From Betaproteobacteria bacterium TMED156 (GTDB lineage: Bacteria > Pseudomonadota > Gammaproteobacteria > Burkholderiales > Burkholderiaceae_A): a stretch of DNA of 13,353 bases. The notes beneath the pieces are model-generated. The model was not told the origin of the DNA and did not search any database. It worked only from the letters and a program-made list of their open reading frames with translations. Of this stretch, positions 2,315 through 12,757 are shown piece after piece; within the stretch, counting starts at the first letter, position 1; every line of letters begins with the position of its first letter. The stretch lies in contig NHHF01000035.1 in assembly GCA_002171155.1 (NCBI GenBank), positions 1-13,353 of the forward strand, in the 5' to 3' direction. Both the position numbers and the translations under genes were made by a program.

Positions 2315-2668
2315 TTAACTATATACACTACCTATTATAAAGTAATCTACGATAAAAGTCAATTCTGCTCCTAGGAAAACTGCTATCCAATAGTTTCCTA
2401 TTTTATTCCATATTTGCTTTATTATCCACCATGCAACAATAACCCTTGCAGTATATAAGAAATCTGCTACAAACAGATCTAACCATTCAAATCCTGATGC
2501 ATTAAAGTAATTATAGAAAATGATGTTGTCGTATATGAAACTTAACTGTGCCATTACAAACACAGCAACATAATAATTAAGTTTGTAATTTAAAAACTTA
2601 ACTAGCGGTCCGGAAACCGCTAGTCTATAGATAACATAAGTTGCGTTAGCGATTGCTAACTCTATCAT
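2315..2668 (-). CDS. Small 4-helix membrane protein with internal duplication, candidate TctB-like subunit
   Basis: This is a 117-residue, very hydrophobic protein with about four predicted membrane segments (roughly 3-23, 31-53, 63-85 and 92-114). The two halves repeat with a period of 61 residues: NYYVAVFVMAQLSFIYDNII (31-50) aligns with NYWIAVFLGAELTFIVDYFI (92-111) at 11 of 20 identities plus several conservative pairs. The first helices of each half align more weakly. It lies 6 bases after the TctC stop, in the place where a TTT operon might carry its small membrane subunit TctB, which is normally about 150 residues with four helices and poorly conserved. I see no sequence signature that proves TctB. 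A holin or unrelated membrane protein remains possible. A GC-rich hairpin lies within codons 15-22. Confidence 0.6.
   Translation of the reverse strand: MIELAIANATYVIYRLAVSGPLVKFLNYKLNYYVAVFVMAQLSFIYDNIIFYNYFNASGFEWLDLFVADFLYTARVIVAWWIIKQIWNKIGNYWIAVFLGAELTFIVDYFIIGSVYS
2592..2624 (-). terminator. Intragenic GC-rich hairpin with T-run, possible attenuator
   Basis: The plus strand reads ACTAGCGGT, a 6-base loop, then ACCGCTAGT: a perfect 9-bp stem (2601-2609 with 2616-2624). On the coding (minus) strand the stem is followed after four bases by TTTTT (2596-2592). It lies 45 bases into the 4-helix membrane protein gene and is strikingly GC-rich for this window. It could reduce transcription past tctC or stabilise the tctC mRNA 3' end; it could also be a coding coincidence. 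Confidence 0.35.
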
Positions 2669-2674
2669 TTACTT

Positions 2675-3730
2675 TTATTTTCCTAAGTTTTCTTTGTAAA
2701 CACTTGCTAATCCAAGTGCTTCAGTATTAAATTTAACTAGGTTTTGTAATGCTTTATTATTAATGAATGTCATTAGAGTATCTCTATGTGCATTACCTTC
2801 AGCACCAATTACCCAACCGTAGTCTCCTACTTTCTTTTGAATCACTGCCATAGCATCAGCATCTTGACTCATTTCAGTAAGGGCTTTGATTAATTTATCA
2901 GTGTTAGGGTTACCTTTGTTTACCCACAATGCTTTTTGTAAACCATCTCTAAAAGATTTAACAAGTTTGTATGCATCGTACATATCACCACTAGGTGCTA
3001 CACCCCAACGTTTTTCAAATAGAATTTCAAATTGAAATCCTGGATAATTTGGATCATCTGCATGACTACCATCTGGTTGTAAAATACCATGATGAAACCA
3101 AAGTTCTGCATTTTCATTTCCTGCAACGTGTTTTTTATATGCCGCTGGATTTTCTCTAGTACCATTTAGTTCACCACGTTTAAATGCTAAACGTCTTTCG
3201 CCGCCTGACATACCTTTTACCCAAGTTACATTTTCTTTAAAACAAGCAGTATATTCATCAATTGATTTATCTGGGCCACAAATTAACATTGTAAATGCAA
3301 ATGCTTCGGGTACCATACCTGAACCTGCCGCAAAACTTGGCTTGTTCATGTCTGCACCTTTTAGTTTACCTGCAATAATGTTTAAGTTCATAAGACCGAT
3401 TGACTCATATTCTGCATAATTATAATCTACATTCTCTTGCAAGAACGAAACACCATTACCACCATGTGATACCATAACTACTTTGTCATCACTGCGTAAC
3501 TTATTGTGCCATTTATTAAAACCAGGAATATCTCTTGCTCCTGGGTAATGTTGTAATTTAATTTTTTCACCTAAAAAAGGTTCTAGTTGTTTTGCAACAA
3601 TTTCTGCCCATACGCTAGTACCACCGCCTGGCTTTTGTGGAATTACAAAAGTGTAATCTGCCATTGCTGAAGTAGTTATACCAAACGTAAGAATCATAGT
3701 CGCTAAAAGTTTTCCGATTAGTTTTTTCAT
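2675..3730 (-). CDS. tctC: TctC-type solute-binding protein of a tripartite tricarboxylate transporter
   Basis: This 351-residue protein starts with a textbook signal peptide (KK, a hydrophobic core, then TTSAMA with cleavage after residue 24), so the mature protein is periplasmic. The mature N-terminus YTFVIPQKPGGGTSVWA and the later YPGARDIPG correspond to the TctC/Bug hallmark: a PGGGTDxWAR loop that binds the carboxylate ligand, then a PGAGG-like turn. Here the loop's usual Asp is Ser and the following Arg is Glu, so ligand preference may differ. Two cysteines (C151, C163) could form a disulfide. It is slightly longer than the usual 320-330 residues. AGAGGA lies 7 bases before the ATG. 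The permease gene tctA is two genes upstream in the same operon. The protein would capture an organic acid and deliver it to TctA; the substrate cannot be told from sequence. Confidence 0.85.
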   Translation of the reverse strand: MKKLIGKLLATMILTFGITTSAMADYTFVIPQKPGGGTSVWAEIVAKQLEPFLGEKIKLQHYPGARDIPGFNKWHNKLRSDDKVVMVSHGGNGVSFLQENVDYNYAEYESIGLMNLNIIAGKLKGADMNKPSFAAGSGMVPEAFAFTMLICGPDKSIDEYTACFKENVTWVKGMSGGERRLAFKRGELNGTRENPAAYKKHVAGNENAELWFHHGILQPDGSHADDPNYPGFQFEILFEKRWGVAPSGDMYDAYKLVKSFRDGLQKALWVNKGNPNTDKLIKALTEMSQDADAMAVIQKKVGDYGWVIGAEGNAHRDTLMTFINNKALQNLVKFNTEALGLASVYKENLGK

Positions 3731-3741
3731 TTATGTTTCCT

Positions 3742-4446
3742 CTATACGTTAATCGTTTTATTAAAATCACCAAGTTCAACAACTTGTTTAGTTTCATCAG
3801 TTGTCCAACCTGTAACCTGTAACATTGGTCTATCTTCCCAACCCATATTACAAGTACCGTGGGGAATATCTCGCCATTCCCAAGTAATACATTGTCCTTT
3901 TTTCCATTGATGCCAATTACTATTACCTAATTGAAACACTTGTCCATGTTTCCAATCATCTAACATAATAGCAAACCTTCTCATAAGATTAGGATTTTTA
4001 TCTGCTTCAATTTCAGTAAATGTATTACCGCGTTCTTTTCGTCCTGCAAAATTATCAATATGCCAGTTTAACATTTGTCCAGTAGTTTGGTTATGAAACT
4101 TAATACTTGTTTCTTTCATGCCAAAATACTCTCCAATACGTTTAAACACTGGAATATCTTTTGCGTTTACACGACTAAAAATCTCTATTTCAGGATTCGC
4201 TCCTGCGTTAATTAAGTCATTTTCTTCTAATGTAGAAGTGTAGACTTTTTCTTTTAAATCTATATTTCTGTTTGCCCAAGTATTAGGCTTTGTTTTACTT
4301 AAACACTCTTGTATCTCATTTACCCAGTCGCCTTGAAATGTACAAACTTGTTTGTAATCCACTGTTTCTTTTGCTGGATCAAAATGCCACTTACTTTGTT
4401 TTTTAGTAAATTCCCAACGACTTTCGCCCCAATATTCATCATTCAT
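3742..4446 (-). CDS. 2OG-Fe(II) oxygenase inserted between tctA and tctC
   Basis: This is a 234-residue protein. The jelly-roll core holds H129-x-D131 (LNWHIDNF) and distal H196 (DIPHGTCNMGW) as Fe(II) ligands, with R206 (EDRPMLQVTG) as the likely 2-oxoglutarate-binding Arg. The run 'GQ..TWEWRDIPHGT.N.G..DR...QVTG' is typical of aspartyl-hydroxylase-like oxygenases that I associate with marine phages. The N-terminal 100 residues are not recognisable. TTGGAG lies 8 bases before the ATG, which overlaps the tctA stop by one base (TAATG), so the gene is coupled to the permease. Its position inside the transporter operon suggests co-regulation and perhaps use of an imported organic acid. It could instead modify a macromolecule; nothing in the sequence decides this. 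Confidence 0.8.
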   Translation of the reverse strand: MNDEYWGESRWEFTKKQSKWHFDPAKETVDYKQVCTFQGDWVNEIQECLSKTKPNTWANRNIDLKEKVYTSTLEENDLINAGANPEIEIFSRVNAKDIPVFKRIGEYFGMKETSIKFHNQTTGQMLNWHIDNFAGRKERGNTFTEIEADKNPNLMRRFAIMLDDWKHGQVFQLGNSNWHQWKKGQCITWEWRDIPHGTCNMGWEDRPMLQVTGWTTDETKQVVELGDFNKTINV

Positions 4447-5888
4447 TACGCATACTCCAATTTATTCTTTCTAGAAACTCCATAACCAAATAAACAAATA
4501 ATAGCAACTATTAATCCTATAAACAAAGGTCTTTGTAATAAAGTTTCTATAGTGTATAAAGATGTTATTTGTATAGTTAATGCTTCAACTTTATCTGCTA
4601 AAATAAAAGCCATTAACATCGCCGGTCTGCTAAATTTATATTTTTTTGCAACCACACCTAATACAGTACACAATACTAAAATAATATAGTCTTCAATTCC
4701 TCCTGTGTATTGCACACATGCCCATACAATAAAAGCAACCAATAATGGAAAATAATATATGTAAGGCACATAAGTTATTTTTGCAATATATTTGTTAAAT
4801 GCTACACATATTAATCCTACAATAACTGTTGCCCACATGAACCCAAAAGTTAAACTGTCAAAAAATCTATCGTCATATGCTAGATCAGGAGTGCCTAACT
4901 CAAACCCAAGATACATAAACAAAGCCATTAGCACTGCGGCAAAACTAGCACCAGGTATTCCAAACAATACTGTAGGAATCATCGATGTAGCCTTTTGGGC
5001 ATTATTGGCCCCTTCAGGACCAATTACCCCTCTAATATTACCTTTACCAAACTCTTCATTTCGGTGTGTTGCAACCGTAGAACCATAAGCCATCCAATCT
5101 CCCATAGCACCACCAATGCCAGGTAAAAACCCTACAAATGCTCCAATGGCTCCACCTCTTAATGCGTCCCACTTACAACGCCAAACTGCTTTTATACCTT
5201 GCCATGTTTGTTTACTGTGTGCTTCTTTACCTATTACTGCTACAGACTTTCCTTTGGTCCAGCCATCTAATATTTCTGGAAAAGCAAATAAGCCGGCAAC
5301 AAAAGGCATAAGTTGTACACCATCTGCCAAGTAATTCCAACCTAATGTAAATCTATCAACATTAGTTGCTGGGTCAACTCCAACAAGTCCGAGTATAAGT
5401 CCAATAGTAATAGCAACTAAACTTCTAACCCAATATTTGTTACTAACAAAACCTACACAGGCTAAACTTAACATTATAAAAGCCCATAACTCAGGAATAC
5501 CAAAGTACATAATAAGTTGTACATACCAAGGCAATAATGCAAACGTTAATGTTCCCCAAAGTAATCCATTAAGTGTTGATGTAGTGATTGCCGATGTTAA
5601 AGCATACGTGGCCTTACCTTGTTTTGCTAAAGGATATCCGTCTACCATAGTTGCCGCGGCACTATTAGCACCAGGTATACCCAATAGGACACCCGAGTAT
5701 GTATCACCAGTAGTACTGGCGGCTACAACTGCCATACAAAATATTACGCCTAAGTAAGGGTCGAAACCAAAGTAACTAATAAACCCAAACAGTGCAACTA
5801 AACCTGTGGTCGCTCCTGCACTAGGTATCAGACCAACTAATAGTCCGTATAGTGTTCCTCCAAATAATGCTAAGATTTCATTCATCAT
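4446..5888 (-). CDS. tctA: TctA-type permease of a tripartite tricarboxylate transporter
   Basis: This 480-residue polytopic membrane protein is close to the usual 490-510 residues of TctA. The signature blocks are present: GLLVGLIPSAGATTG (15-29), GIPGANSAAATMVDGYPLAK (70-89), the inverted-repeat counterpart GFLPGIGGAMGDWMAYG (253-269), GVIGPEGANNA (287-297) and IPTVLFGIPGASFAAVL (304-320). These are the two P-G-x-G repeats and the 'EGANNA...IPTL.LGIPG' block that define the family, so the permease looks complete and intact. It sits in the inner membrane and would use an ion gradient to import carboxylates handed over by TctC. It has a very strong Shine-Dalgarno site and is the first gene of the operon. 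Two tandem ATGs (5888 and 5885) are possible starts; the first has 5-base spacing from GGAGG and the second has 8. Confidence 0.92.
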   Translation of the reverse strand: MMNEILALFGGTLYGLLVGLIPSAGATTGLVALFGFISYFGFDPYLGVIFCMAVVAASTTGDTYSGVLLGIPGANSAAATMVDGYPLAKQGKATYALTSAITTSTLNGLLWGTLTFALLPWYVQLIMYFGIPELWAFIMLSLACVGFVSNKYWVRSLVAITIGLILGLVGVDPATNVDRFTLGWNYLADGVQLMPFVAGLFAFPEILDGWTKGKSVAVIGKEAHSKQTWQGIKAVWRCKWDALRGGAIGAFVGFLPGIGGAMGDWMAYGSTVATHRNEEFGKGNIRGVIGPEGANNAQKATSMIPTVLFGIPGASFAAVLMALFMYLGFELGTPDLAYDDRFFDSLTFGFMWATVIVGLICVAFNKYIAKITYVPYIYYFPLLVAFIVWACVQYTGGIEDYIILVLCTVLGVVAKKYKFSRPAMLMAFILADKVEALTIQITSLYTIETLLQRPLFIGLIVAIICLFGYGVSRKNKLEYA

Positions 5889-5892
5889 ACAA

Positions 5893-5900
5893 TCCTCCTT
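5893..5900 (-). promoter_or_regulatory. Strong Shine-Dalgarno site of tctA
   Basis: The coding strand reads AAGGAGGATTGTATGATG. AAGGAGG is the strongest ribosome binding site I see in the window, pointing to high translation of the permease from late transcripts. Confidence 0.8.
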
Positions 5901-5916
5901 TTCTTATCTTATTGGA

Positions 5917-5953
5917 TTGTTAATGAACTCTGAACGACAGGCGTTATCAACAA
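5917..5953 (-). promoter_or_regulatory. Leader hairpin in the tctA 5' untranslated region
   Basis: On the transcribed strand TTGTTGATAAC (5953-5943) can pair with GTTCATTAACAA (5928-5917) across a 14-base loop, with one G-T pair and one bulge. It lies between the late promoter and the ribosome binding site. It may stabilise the mRNA. It does not match a riboswitch I recognise. Confidence 0.35.
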
Positions 5954-5978
5954 ATATGTCAAAAACTTTTATTGTTAT

Positions 5979-5986
5979 TATTTATC
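5979..5986 (-). promoter_or_regulatory. T4-type late promoter for the tctA operon
   Basis: The minus strand reads GATAAATA, matching the marine T4-like late consensus NATAAATA. It overlaps the stop codon of the upstream methyltransferase gene and lies about 90 bases before the tctA ATG, so transcription would start near 5973. Confidence 0.6.
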
Positions 5987-6668
5987 AATTTTGTTTCTTA
6001 CGCCATACAAAGTACATTCTATTGTTCGAATCATTACGTAGATCCAAAATATCTACATCAAAATGATCTGCACAGTTTTGTATAAAATTGGCGTTCCATG
6101 GATAGAAAACTATCCAATCCGATTCAGGTGCTTCATGAAGCATACCAGGATTGACCCTAAAGAACATCGTTCCGCCAGGTGCACACAATTCTACTGCGTG
6201 TTCTAATTCAGCAAAAACTTTATCTGTTGATCCAAAATTAATCGAACCTAGAACAATAATGACATCAAATTGTTTACCTGGATTGTATTCTAATATAGTT
6301 TCCTGTACGTCTGCTTTTGCGTTGTATGGATCAACACCAACCAAATTTGGTATCTTTCCTTTGAACTCATTATATCCACAACCTAGATCTAAAACAGATG
6401 TTGGATTCAAGGAATTGATTTCATCAATTAGTTTCAATCCACTGTATTTAAATTGTTTTGTTTTTGGTTGCCATACTTCACCAAAGTATTTTGATAATAC
6501 TGCAAAGTCAATCCTATCAACGAGCTCTCCAATTGATTTGAAACTCACATCATCTACTCTAACATTAAAAGTTGCTTGTATGAGCTGTCTCAGTTTCATA
6601 TCATTTTTCAGTACCTGTGGAGATATCTGCAATACTCTTTCTAATTCATTTAAAATTCTTATGTTCAT
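5985..6668 (-). CDS. Class I SAM-dependent methyltransferase
   Basis: This is a 227-residue protein with a Rossmann-type methyltransferase domain in its C-terminal two thirds. Motif I is VLDLGCGYNEF (92-102), the post-I acidic strand end is LVGVDPYNA (109-117), motif IV is FDVIIVLGSINFGS (134-147), and the strand after it is CAPGGTMFFRVNPG (162-175). The first 85 residues are helical and not recognised; they may bind the substrate. Family knowledge says it transfers a methyl group from S-adenosylmethionine; the acceptor (small molecule, glycan or protein) is unknown. GAGAGG precedes the ATG by 5 bases, and the ATG overlaps the previous stop as ATGA. It ends the three-gene operon that begins at 7980, and its stop codon overlaps the late promoter of the tctA operon. 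Confidence 0.85.
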   Translation of the reverse strand: MNIRILNELERVLQISPQVLKNDMKLRQLIQATFNVRVDDVSFKSIGELVDRIDFAVLSKYFGEVWQPKTKQFKYSGLKLIDEINSLNPTSVLDLGCGYNEFKGKIPNLVGVDPYNAKADVQETILEYNPGKQFDVIIVLGSINFGSTDKVFAELEHAVELCAPGGTMFFRVNPGMLHEAPESDWIVFYPWNANFIQNCADHFDVDILDLRNDSNNRMYFVWRKKQN

Positions 6669-8535: not shown

Positions 8536-9327
8536 ATGCAACAAAAAACAAATGCCATTGAAATAGATCGCTGTTCTGCTATTGTTAGCACACCTGATAG
8601 GATTTCTAAATTACCTACAATAATTATTGTGCATGGTAGTGGTGGTATAGGTTCCTGTGAATGGCAATGGCATGATCTAGCATTAAAAAATAATTGCAAT
8701 GCAATAATCATTGATCATTTTACTAAAAAAGGTGTAAGAGATTGGTGGTGGCATGAACCAGAATTTAATCCTACATTTCATGACATGGCCAATGACGTTG
8801 TAAATGTAATTGACCATATCTATACCAAAGAATCATTGTTTGGTTTTATTGATTTCGATAAACTTGCTGTTGTTGGATTTTCGGCAGGAGGGACTGCAAG
8901 TATATTGCTTTCAACCATGGTAAACGAGATCAAACTATTTGGTTCTGTCAATCCATGCATTTGGCCATACTTGCCAGAATTTGACAAAGTAAGAAACAAA
9001 GACAGTTTGCATTTATACTGTGGAGATTTAGATGATTGGTGTTCTTATGATAAACAAAAATTATTCAGTGAAAGAACTGGAACACATCTGCACACATACA
9101 AGAATTGTCATCACGGCTTTACTAGACCAAGAGCAAATCCAATAGGAAGAAAACTACCAGACACTGTAACATTTAGAAACTGTGACTTTCCTATTCCTTA
9201 CAGATACAATATGTCTAATATGATTAAGTTTGAAGATAGTTGGGAAAAGGGTGTCACTGTCGAATATAATGCTGAAGCATCAAAACAAGTACAAGAACAT
9301 TTCTTTAATTTAATTAAATCTTTTTAA
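8536..9327 (+). CDS. Alpha/beta hydrolase, dienelactone-hydrolase-like
   Basis: This is a 263-residue protein with the full catalytic plan of an alpha/beta hydrolase. IIIVHGSGGIGS (29-40) is the first strand and oxyanion loop, VVGFSAGG (112-119) the nucleophile elbow with Ser116, LYCGDLDDWC (160-169) the acid region with Asp166 or Asp167, and NCHHGF (190-195) the catalytic His192/193. The order and the CHHGF ending are typical of the dienelactone hydrolase family. It should hydrolyse an ester or lactone in the cytoplasm; there is no signal peptide. The substrate is unknown. It is the only gene of its strand in this part of the window and its end overlaps the convergent gene at 9310 by 18 bases. 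Its start is fixed by the module AGGTTAAATACTAAT. An auxiliary metabolic or lipid/glycan-deacylating role is possible. Confidence 0.85.
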   Translation: MQQKTNAIEIDRCSAIVSTPDRISKLPTIIIVHGSGGIGSCEWQWHDLALKNNCNAIIIDHFTKKGVRDWWWHEPEFNPTFHDMANDVVNVIDHIYTKESLFGFIDFDKLAVVGFSAGGTASILLSTMVNEIKLFGSVNPCIWPYLPEFDKVRNKDSLHLYCGDLDDWCSYDKQKLFSERTGTHLHTYKNCHHGFTRPRANPIGRKLPDTVTFRNCDFPIPYRYNMSNMIKFEDSWEKGVTVEYNAEASKQVQEHFFNLIKSF

Positions 9328-10359: not shown

Positions 10360-10986
10360 TTATGCAGTTGTTTCTGCGGTAGCTTCTTTTTTAGGTCTAC
10401 CTCTTGGTCTTTTTGGTTCAGCATAAACTAGTTCTTTACCTAATTTTTTCTGTATACCTGGAGACACTGACTCTGCTTCTGCACGTTTTTTATGTGCGTC
10501 GGCTTCCATCATTTCTGCTTGTATAAGCAAGTTCCTTGCAATACCATCTTGATCATTTTCATCAGCAGGTTGTTGCATTTCTCCTGCTTTAGTTGATGAG
10601 TCTGGTGTTTGTGGAATTGCTGGTTCTTCTTTAGTTTCTTCTACCATTTTTTGGTATGCATTGAATTCTTTCAAAGGAAGTGTTTCTGTAGGTGACGGTA
10701 ACAATGTTATCGTATCTACTGGCACTCTTCTTAAGAATCCTTTTTCATGCAAAGTTGTTAAAATATTTTTACCATCCCAAAACAACTTTCTACCAAGCAC
10801 TTCAAATAATTTATTTGATGCTTGAGCTTCTGGTGATTCAACTGCCTGCATAAGCCCGTCATGATAACGTTGCTCTAGCGAGTTGATATCTACCACAAGA
10901 CAATTGTCTTGATCTTCTGGTATTGATGGAAATACAACTACAACACGTCTGTTGGTTGAATCCACTCTACCTGTATGTTTTATCAT
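10360..10986 (-). CDS. Probable phage virion-associated protein with C-terminal AT-hook
   Basis: This is a 208-residue protein. The first 100 residues (RVVVVFPSIPEDQDNCLVVD, then LMQAVESPEAQ, KLFWDGKN, LHEKGFLRRVPVDTITLLPS) form a compact domain that I associate with conserved structural proteins of cyanophage and pelagiphage myoviruses; this is memory-based. Residues 110-185 are low in complexity, acidic and partly coiled-coil (QAEMMEADAHKKRAEAE). The end carries PKRPRGRPKKEA, a perfect AT-hook core R195-G-R-P198, which binds the minor groove of AT-rich DNA. The gene follows the 106-residue gene by 35 bases with AGGAG 7 bases before ATG, so both are transcribed from the promoters at 11371-11400. 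A hairpin terminator follows. A DNA-contacting virion or packaging role would fit. Confidence 0.7.
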   Translation of the reverse strand: MIKHTGRVDSTNRRVVVVFPSIPEDQDNCLVVDINSLEQRYHDGLMQAVESPEAQASNKLFEVLGRKLFWDGKNILTTLHEKGFLRRVPVDTITLLPSPTETLPLKEFNAYQKMVEETKEEPAIPQTPDSSTKAGEMQQPADENDQDGIARNLLIQAEMMEADAHKKRAEAESVSPGIQKKLGKELVYAEPKRPRGRPKKEATAETTA

Positions 10987-11021
10987 TATTATTCTCCTAA
11001 TTGCAATTATTAACTTTTATT

Positions 11022-11342
11022 TTATTTTTGTTCAGGTGCCGCCTGAGCCGGTTGTGCATCTCCAATTGTACCTTCATCAATTGCTCCACCTTCAGCTTTC
11101 GCTTTTTCTTCTTGTTGAGCTTTTTGTTGATCTGCGACATGCTGTAAAAACTTTGTAAGTTTATCTGCAATACCGCCAACATTTGAAAGTTCATTGGCTC
11201 TAAATGCACCTCTTGAACTTGCTACGTCGATGATGTTCATCAAAGCCTGTAAATCAGCTATCGACAATTGTGGTACCTCTGCCGCTTGAGCTTGACTTGG
11301 TGCTTCTTGAGTAGCTTGTTGTTGTGCTTTTTCTTCAGCCAT
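11022..11342 (-). CDS. Small Q/A-rich phage protein conserved in marine T4-like phages
   Basis: This is a 106-residue protein with a conserved-looking core, LSIADLQALMNIIDVASSRG (26-45) followed by AFRANELSNVGGIADKLTKF (46-65), between Gln/Ala/Glu-rich, probably disordered ends. The motif 'RGAFxAxELSxVGxxxDKLxxFL' is one I recall from uncharacterised, possibly virion-associated, proteins of marine T4-like phages. It has an excellent Shine-Dalgarno site (AAGGAG, 8-base spacing). Two promoters precede it, one host-type and one late-type. It is the first gene of a two-gene unit with the AT-hook protein. There is no membrane segment and no catalytic motif. Confidence 0.75.
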   Translation of the reverse strand: MAEEKAQQQATQEAPSQAQAAEVPQLSIADLQALMNIIDVASSRGAFRANELSNVGGIADKLTKFLQHVADQQKAQQEEKAKAEGGAIDEGTIGDAQPAQAAPEQK

Positions 11343-11408: not shown

Positions 11409-11954
11409 TTAAGCGACTTTAATTAGATTATCATCCCATTTTAAATAGGATTTCCAACTATGATGGGGAATCATTAGTGGAAACTGTGATCTTTTGTTGG
11501 CCAATTCCCAATAGTCTGGTTTGTACGGCATTTGTTTTGGCCTAATATCTCTACTGCCTTTTTCAACATTACAAGTTGTACATGAGGTTACTATGTTCTC
11601 CCAATGTGAATGTCCACCTTGAGATCTTGGAATAACATGGTCAAGTGTTAGATCTCTCCAGTTTCGATCATTGTATTCACATCCACAATATTGACAGGTG
11701 AACAAATCTCTTAGATAAACATTATTTCTTGAAAATCTTGGATGCCTGGCCAAATTTAAATATTCTTTTGCAATCAATACACTCGGAACGTGCATTTCTG
11801 TAGAAGGGCTGTGGATAATCCAATCATCGTAATATTCTAAAACTTTAAACTTATCTAGCCAAATTAATTTGATTGAGAGATGCCAATTTACTGCACTAAT
11901 GGGCAATAAACTTAACGGGGATCCGTCTGCATTTAGAATTAATGTATCACTCAT
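11409..11954 (-). CDS. HNH endonuclease of the type common in T4-like marine phages
   Basis: This is a 181-residue protein. The HNH domain occupies about 80-140: zinc-binding C87-x2-C90 (CQYC), the catalytic LTLDHVIPRSQGG block with D105-H106, N120 (HWENIV) and the second pair C125-x2-C128 followed by N129 (CTTCNVEKG). This is the ββα-metal nuclease fold with a structural zinc, and all key residues are present, so it should cut DNA. The N-terminal 80 residues (LILNADGSPLSLLPISAVNW) match the widespread phage HNH form that sits near structural genes, rather than an obvious intron homing enzyme. Homing or a packaging-related role are both possible. The ribosome site is weak (AAG) and a poor late-like box ACTAAATA lies at 11977-11970. 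It is divergent from the secreted protein gene at 12039. Confidence 0.9.
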   Translation of the reverse strand: MSDTLILNADGSPLSLLPISAVNWHLSIKLIWLDKFKVLEYYDDWIIHSPSTEMHVPSVLIAKEYLNLARHPRFSRNNVYLRDLFTCQYCGCEYNDRNWRDLTLDHVIPRSQGGHSHWENIVTSCTTCNVEKGSRDIRPKQMPYKPDYWELANKRSQFPLMIPHHSWKSYLKWDDNLIKVA

Positions 11955-12541: not shown

Positions 12542-12757
12542 ATGAACAATCCATTTACCGACCATCCACATAGTGTCAATGAGAACTACTTCACTCACAT
12601 GCGTCATTCATTATCGTATAGTGTAAAATTTATTTGGTTAGCATTTATGACTTTGGTACATGCATTTTTTCCTTTTATTTTTACCAATGCAAGTAGCAAA
12701 CTAGTTAAGAAAATTAATGATCATTTAGATCATCGTCTAACCAACCGCAACCAGTAA
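12542..12757 (+). CDS. DUF6356-like small membrane protein
   Basis: This 71-residue protein begins NPFTDHPHSVNENYFTHMRH, continues with one hydrophobic segment (FIWLAFMTLVHAFFPFIF, about 30-47) and ends in a basic amphipathic tail (SSKLVKKINDHLDHRL). The pattern 'F.HP.SV.E.Y..H...' followed by 'HA..PF.F...S' fits DUF6356, a small family I know from alphaproteobacteria; its function is unknown to me. A bacterial-type membrane protein here suggests capture from the host. It is preceded by GAGGAG, 5 bases from ATG. The 3' end overlaps the convergent miniprotein gene by 21 bases. Confidence 0.75.
   Translation: MNNPFTDHPHSVNENYFTHMRHSLSYSVKFIWLAFMTLVHAFFPFIFTNASSKLVKKINDHLDHRLTNRNQ

Follow-up and report, generated by a model that had tools for sequence, protein, structure and literature searches.

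The window, a stretch of 13,353 bp with 33% GC on contig NHHF01000035.1 of Betaproteobacteria bacterium TMED156, contains on its minus strand an intact gene pair encoding a permease of the TctA family and a solute-binding protein of the TctC type, the families of the bacterial tripartite tricarboxylate transporter (TTT). This TctA/TctC pair is real, intact and widespread in phages, has no recognisable TctB, and is preceded by a covarying RNA hairpin, the tct leader RNA, which has no Rfam match and looks new. The best explanation of the window, judged from the gene content of its relatives, is that it belongs to the genome of a marine phage of the T4 type. With a probability of about 0.7, the pair is a late-expressed, two-gene solute importer of these phages with its own RNA regulator.

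The tctA and tctC genes and their viral relatives

The tctA gene (4446 to 5888, minus strand) encodes a protein of 480 amino acids, which matches the large-permease family PF01970 from profile position 1 to 422 of 423 (E 1.9e-95; 320.5 bits, cut-off 28.9). Long blocks of TctA are invariant across 12 aligned viral sequences. The tctC gene (2675 to 3730, minus strand) encodes a divergent periplasmic solute-binding protein of 351 amino acids, which contains the motif PGGGTSVWA and shows a hydrophobic N-terminus ending in AMA-DYTF, a likely signal peptide as judged by eye. Pfam and NCBIfam do not recognise the TctC of the window, PF03401 gives no match, and the closest sequence in the PDB, that of BugD, matches only marginally (E 0.0013). 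The AlphaFold model (alignment A2, 19 sequences; predicted local distance difference test, pLDDT, 88) shows a clear TctC/Bug-type predicted fold: with E values from 1.6e-9 to 3.4e-7, TM-scores by query of 0.50-0.57 and 10-16% identity, its first 16 Foldseek matches in the PDB are MatC, BugD, Bug27, TphC, terephthalate-binding proteins, a TctC and an entry with no other title than "periplasmic transporter". Receptors of the TRAP and other types come next, from 8e-7; the fold class is therefore clear, and the assignment to the family is based in addition on a TctC profile, which matches cellular TctC with 99.9% probability (hhalign). This profile contains 63 proteins, that of the window and 62 from the loci, including contigs L080 and L081 of metagenome-assembled genomes (MAGs), and in a small database it detects the receptors whose genes adjoin cellular tctA (E 5e-32 and weaker). 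Three receptors encoded beside cellular tctA all match PF03401, one of them under the cut-off. TctA and TctC are each assigned to their protein family, and the pair is classed as TTT-like in its putative working. A second, more divergent TctC subfamily, with about 35% identity to the TctC of the window and its own copy of the leader RNA, is found in L136, L143, L145, L184 and L196.

Both genes are under purifying selection. For tctA the ratio of nonsynonymous to synonymous substitution rates (dN/dS) has a median of 0.074 and a range of 0.036-0.145 (116 pairs), and for tctC a median of 0.086 and a maximum of 0.616 (119 pairs), in pairs with 85-98.5% amino-acid identity and dS below 2, which are not independent of each other. 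These values and the full-length reading frames make a decaying hitchhiker without function scarcely credible, although the content between tctA and tctC varies among lineages.

The IMG/VR scan with the TctA of the window gave 73 viral loci on as many contigs, with 64-94% identity. Counting the window, tctC accompanies tctA in 64 of 74 loci, and the remaining 10 stretches end inside tctA or at most 0.65 kb past it. This conserved linkage supports the earlier note, which was made from the sequence alone. A search of 5.8 billion proteins gave 1,800 matches, of which the best 120 all show 71-96% identity. The 204-kb contig of L012 has, on one side of tctA, genes for a tail sheath, two tail-tube proteins, head closure, terminase and a structural protein, followed by tctA, ORF234 (open reading frame, ORF), a methyltransferase gene, tctC, ORF117, gp32 and UvsX; gp23 and the portal gene are elsewhere on the same contig. 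Across the contigs searched, terminase is found on five of 29, and gp23 on one of 29 and on three of 30 further contigs, of 300, 151 and 146 kb; gp23 is in no control genome. The T4-type set of gp23, portal, terminase and tail genes is present on G007, and gp23 on G709, G711 and G036. The latter (146 kb) also shows, close to its tctA (L105), homologues of two phage-family genes of the window, phrog_15894 and phrog_13789, with 31% and 44% identity, which ties the other flank of the window to T4-type phages. The viral clade and the terminase, capsid, portal or tail genes that the earlier note proposed to look for beside the pair were thus found, the latter on some contigs. As metabolic genes in viral genomes under purifying selection, tctA and tctC are putative auxiliary metabolic genes (AMGs).

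Close relatives in cellular genomes are rare. In 84,980 species genomes, searched by two pattern-limited scans, the window as query found no relative, and an alignment as query found two. The first is on a phage-like contig in a Pelagibacter MAG, with 58% identity and, by eye, the gene order of the phages; the second, with 56% identity, is on an Omnitrophota MAG contig which by eye is chromosome-like. This Omnitrophota contig (L081, 3168 to 5654) shows tctA with 56% and tctC with about 48% identity and, by eye, adjoining methyltransferase-like genes, and a transfer between phage and cell is possible. It belongs to the only one of 285 Omnitrophota genomes with a match at E <= 1e-60. In 385 Alphaproteobacteria (E <= 1e-30), identity is at most 36% among the matches listed, one phage-like MAG contig excepted, and the closest plasmid TctA has 36.8% identity (the highest value among the 10 listed of 807 plasmid records). 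In the TctA tree, made by a quick method without bootstrap, 94 viral, database and MAG-contig sequences are split from 19 cellular ones, all alphaproteobacterial, with full support in the Shimodaira-Hasegawa-like approximate likelihood ratio test (SH-aLRT), and the separating branch is very long. A viral clade under purifying selection, which the earlier note named as a supportive result, is supported.

A bacterial chromosome, a misbinned contig or a chimeric assembly, which would have undone the phage assignment, is very improbable. Most contigs are short, one relative lies on the Omnitrophota contig, and the phage collection contains no close TctA (seven records, all below 32% identity) and no TctC. 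Against this, the same gene pair is present on dozens of contigs, some flanked on both sides by phage genes, and close relatives are almost absent from the species genomes in the two pattern-limited scans; this alternative is largely refuted.

Leader hairpin and putative late-type promoter

The alignment of tctA upstream regions revealed a hairpin which in the window spans 5907 to 5955 (minus strand). Its parts are an AAC/GUU helix, an outer stem of roughly eight pairs, an inner stem-loop and, on the 3' side, a bulged C. Across ten sequences, both sides vary in 10 of the 14 pairs, with a covariation score of 0.702 compared with 0.186 in shuffled alignments, and none of 500 shuffles reaches the score. 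In 42 distinct sequences, 11 of the 14 pairs vary on both sides (0.474 compared with 0.131; 0 of 500 shuffles); this larger alignment was fitted to the structure and therefore leans towards it, and 46 of 500 shuffles show at least as many further pair types. The element is thus a conserved structured leader with covariation, as riboswitches are. Rfam shows no family near its gathering score at the hairpin in the window, L001, L025, L054, L064 and L143, only sub-threshold matches at chance level. The tct leader RNA is probably undescribed so far.

The hairpin is associated with transporter genes. A model of it (R1) scores the copy of the window at 51.6 bits, the window being among the ten sequences from which R1 was built. 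Over the window and 99 loci (1.09 Mb), R1 gives 16 strong matches, all directly before tctA: ten are the model's own sequences and six are new, mostly close relatives. A weaker match before tctA is found in L052 (29 bits), and a weak one elsewhere in L072 (23.9 bits, E 0.089). A gene-blind scan of IMG/VR for the core motif, run to lessen the circularity, gave at least 120 stretches in at least 80 loci. R1 reaches 30 bits or more in 33 of the 80 loci scored, and the other 47 score below 19 bits or not at all. The first long ORF after the 33 confident hairpins is tctA in 24, tctC in eight and a sodium:solute symporter in one (L206), with tctA down to 44% and tctC down to 35% identity. Some of the 33 copies are near-identical, L193 contains just the first codons of tctA, and L164 and the previously collected L109 are one contig. 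Among 289 Alphaproteobacteria, the hairpin was found only on the phage-like contig of the Pelagibacter MAG; the filters were stricter and no more than 20 candidates were scored in the genomes listed, which may have missed copies.

The leader RNA also precedes a second type of phage transporter. The symporter of L206 (2471 to 3913, minus strand) matches PF00474 (E 2e-24), and in the PDB its nearest sequence is DUR3, a urea symporter (E 2.5e-18), ahead of weaker matches to choline and glucose carriers. A scan for this symporter gave 57 viral loci of IMG/VR (L261-L317) with 50-100% identity. R1 finds the hairpin in five of them (27.8-35.8 bits), each immediately before the symporter gene, and most of the symporter loci have no detectable hairpin. 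One of the five is on the contig of L206 itself; the other four, which are three distinct sequences, have C-G at a position where the U-A pair is otherwise invariant.

The earlier note placed the operon behind a T4-type late promoter. The T4 late promoter consensus is TATAAATA, and the octamer of the window, GATAAATA (5979 to 5986, minus strand), has one mismatch to it. Octamers with one mismatch are present in 38 of 57 tctA upstream regions and in 42% of shuffles, which is weak taken alone. The exact TATAAATA is found in just three of the 57 (3% expected), and an exact T4 late promoter as a general rule is rejected. A relaxed pattern, N[AT]TAANTA, which was picked after inspecting the same sequences, is present in 30 of 41 distinct upstream regions with its start 8-30 nt ahead of the hairpin model, compared with 9% in mononucleotide shuffles and one of 41 in a control window farther upstream. 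In 26 cases the start lies 14-17 nt before the hairpin model, which leaves 6-9 nt from the end of the octamer to the hairpin. At such a fixed distance the hairpin would sit at the 5' end of a late transcript. For the late-type promoter of the earlier note, the signal is strong in the relatives with the relaxed, hairpin-anchored octamer, while the copy of the window is weak by itself and lies outside this spacing.

Behind the conserved hairpin the leaders differ. In the window, L001 and L002, the 3' strand of the hairpin is complementary to the region of the ribosome site and start codon, so that two mutually exclusive states are predicted. In the window this alternative pairing (5880 to 5928, minus strand) joins positions 5914-5928 to about 5880-5895, a region which includes part of the Shine-Dalgarno sequence AAGGAGG of tctA (5894 to 5900, minus strand), the strong ribosome site claimed from the sequence alone. 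In the three leaders it is the predicted minimum-energy fold (-16.6 to -16.8 kcal/mol), and none of 300 shuffles pairs as strongly. L212 and L155 also pass start-codon masking at 0 of 300, and L186 marginally. L267 and L109 show an intrinsic-terminator-like hairpin after the conserved one (one found compared with 0.1 expected, in each), and L269 and L271 have the same arrangement of sequence. Differing downstream devices behind one conserved element appear to resemble regulatory RNAs. Start-codon masking was also considered as a general riboswitch platform and rejected, being significant in just six of 43 leaders. By eye, the leaders of L034, L212 and L172 show a second hairpin between a purine-rich stretch like a ribosome site and the AUG, reminiscent of the hairpin which some T4 genes carry in the initiation region.

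The hairpin may instead be a mere stabiliser of the mRNA 5' end or a processing signal, with no regulation specific to transporters, and this is quite possible, though not favoured. It starts a few nucleotides after the late-promoter-like octamer in most copies, and the alternative state is predicted in few leaders, both as expected of a stabiliser. The invariant AAC/GUU pairs and bulged C speak against it, as do the terminator-like hairpins of L267 and L109 and the position of all 33 confident gene-blind copies before transporter genes, even though late genes are numerous in T4-type phages. A further-reaching reading is that marine T4-type phages have an RNA-controlled regulon for nutrient import, in which an undescribed class of small riboswitch would sense a solute late in infection and control phage importers from two unrelated families, TctA/TctC and the DUR3-like sodium:solute symporter, with the same substrate; this is put forward tentatively and is rather doubtful, and the hairpin on which it is based has been found so far in viral or phage-like sequence only.

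TctB, ORF117 and the surrounding genes

The minus-strand transcription order in the window is a methyltransferase-like gene, tctA, ORF234, tctC and ORF117, and the last four are separated by gaps or overlaps of at most 11 bp, in line with the single operon proposed by the earlier note. That note also spoke of a complete importer, which does not hold: the Pfam search found TctB (PF07331) in none of 38 virus records, and the single match in 40 records comes from the Pelagibacter MAG, on a different contig from that with tctA. Since TctB was not detected, TctA/TctC is not classed as a complete TTT system.

ORF117 (2315 to 2668, minus strand) encodes a small membrane protein with four predicted helices (pLDDT 77), a possible stand-in for TctB. 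Profile and fold tests gave no support for homology to TctB: hhalign gives 0.1-0.2% probability against TctB and against TctB-like tails, with a moderate positive control, TctB against the tail of a long cellular TctA, which reached just 51.6%, and the model has no PDB match at E <= 0.001. ORF117 is present in 15 of the first 73 loci, sometimes 6-8 kb from tctC, and in a crude hydropathy scan many loci have no small multi-helix protein near tctA. ORF234 (3742 to 4446, minus strand), between tctA and tctC, encodes a weakly 2-oxoglutarate-Fe(II) (2OG-Fe(II))-oxygenase-like protein (PF13640, E 0.13, sub-threshold) and has a copy with 97% identity at the same position in L001; the genes between tctA and tctC vary among lineages.

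The methyltransferase-like gene (5985 to 6668, minus strand; PF13489, E 1.4e-6) is directly upstream of the tctA leader. Its family is found near tctA in 50 of 74 loci, the window counted, and near the symporter in 51 of 57. Farther upstream are the two phage-family genes (10360 to 11342, minus strand; phrog_15894, E 3.5e-16, and phrog_13789, E 2.5e-12) and a phage-type HNH endonuclease gene (11409 to 11954, minus strand; phrog_16726, E 5.8e-36), which bear out the phage-type genes noticed earlier beside the pair. The endonuclease matches 161 phage records, every one below 60% identity. No PHROG match was found for 17 of the 20 window ORFs tested, and Pfam and PHROG searches of the window ORFs recognised no structural phage gene within the window itself. 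The window also shows a DUF6356 gene (12542 to 12757, plus strand; PF19883, E 2.5e-22) and a dienelactone-hydrolase-like gene (8536 to 9327, plus strand; PF01738, E 2.2e-4, barely above the cut-off) on the strand opposite to most of its neighbours. Near tctA there is one tRNA gene in L001 (7375-7446) and a run of three in L054 (6957-7189). The viral contig L061, with tctA and tctC, also encodes a tryptophan-halogenase-like protein (988-2445; PF04820, 4e-60) and PhoH (5115-5840; PF02562).

Proposed working of the pair and comparison with known systems

In the proposed working, the tctA/tctC pair would be transcribed from the late-type promoter, and the bulged hairpin near the 5' end of the mRNA would tune the output of membrane protein; in the clade of the window, the 3' strand of the hairpin could instead base-pair with the start codon and ribosome site. 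Once secreted into the periplasm of the host, TctC would capture a small anion for transfer to TctA, the permease in the inner membrane. The known ligands of the TctC family are of the carboxylate type. TctA would then import the anion by ion symport, as cellular TTT permeases do. Late expression, transport, regulation and the class of substrate, with the high-affinity uptake of organic acids that the earlier note proposed, are inferred, whereas the data show the viral context, the intact and conserved genes under purifying selection, the covariation of the RNA and its association with transporter genes. TctB may be replaced by ORF117 or by the TctB of the host, or may be dispensable.

Several results weigh against this reading. 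Besides the missing TctB, the phage collection without a close relative and the few leaders with start-codon masking (six of 43 at p <= 0.05, with about two expected by chance, and restricted by lineage), the folding energy of the hairpin is modest (z -1.35 to -3.87 in eight copies) and most tctA loci have no detectable hairpin (16 strong in 100 sources and one more in 73). The T4-type context is seen on few contigs: a T4 hallmark is found in 15 of 102 tctA stretches, some of them duplicates of one contig, gp23 on only four of the 59 contigs searched, the T4 portal on one of 29 and the Pfam tail-sheath model on none of 29, the terminase model also fires in six of 14 control genomes, and most tctA contigs are fragments without a recognised structural gene. 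The cellular sample of the tree consists of 19 Alphaproteobacteria on long branches.

TctA and TctC may also have been repurposed, for a block of superinfection, dissipation of the membrane potential or late export, instead of feeding the host. The long branch from all sampled cellular TctA, the lack of TctB and the late-type promoter are in favour of this, yet TctC retains its likely signal peptide and TctC/Bug-type predicted fold, the long blocks of TctA are invariant, permease and receptor are retained together under similar constraint, and the same RNA is ahead of an unrelated symporter. Repurposing is unlikely, and import remains the preferred reading. Phage auxiliary genes are mostly enzymes. 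An intact receptor-permease pair in a deep viral clade implies that control of uptake by the infected cell is worth genome space, and T4-related ocean phages with their own importer suggest that viruses manage this uptake. The effector of the hairpin should indicate which solute is imported, and more phage transporters can be searched for by means of the hairpin, a tag which already led to the symporter clade.

No report on a phage TctA-TctC pair or on the tct leader RNA was found among the open-access papers listed. The earlier note knew of no characterised example of such a phage system, which holds in part: tctA was already among the putative AMGs on SUP05 viral contigs, as a "protein domain hit only" (Roux et al., 2014; PMC4164917), a report repeated in a review (PMC6359870). 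As in the loci described here, TctA is on viral contigs and a 2OG-oxygenase is among the AMGs of the same paper (PMC4164917); in the passages seen of that paper the evidence is the domain hit alone, the role of tctA is called unknown, and neither TctC nor an RNA is named. The marine T4-like phage Melnitz contains a glutamine riboswitch, a glnA-type RNA at ssrA, and the passages on a pelagimyophage survey state that no known riboswitch was found (PMC9004378 and PMC7029224, respectively). Both the Melnitz RNA, as described in the part seen of PMC9004378, and the tct leader are structured cis-RNAs of marine T4-like phages, but the tct leader has no Rfam match and precedes transporters.

The putative promoters of the pair resemble T4 late promoters in being an AT-rich octamer at a fixed position in the phage relatives, and differ from them in that the octamer is relaxed to N[AT]TAANTA and seldom exact. 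The closest sampled cellular homologues, and the best cellular matches to viral TctA, are TctA proteins of 642-703 amino acids with an extra C-terminal domain, whose adjoining receptors are matched by the viral TctC profile. Viral TctA stops at 480 amino acids, without this tail, which is weakly TctB-like by hhalign and in which Pfam sees no TctB in three of three. With the bacterial TTT systems (TctCBA, with Bug/TctC receptors), the phage pair shares the PF01970 permease, the TctC-type fold, the likely signal peptide and the linkage of the genes. The cellular gene order is C-B-A, whereas in the phage loci, where no TctB was found, tctA precedes tctC. The phage pair also differs in its TctA, with about 37% identity at best among the listed cellular matches, and in its place within phage genomes, where an RNA leader and a late-type promoter lie ahead of it.

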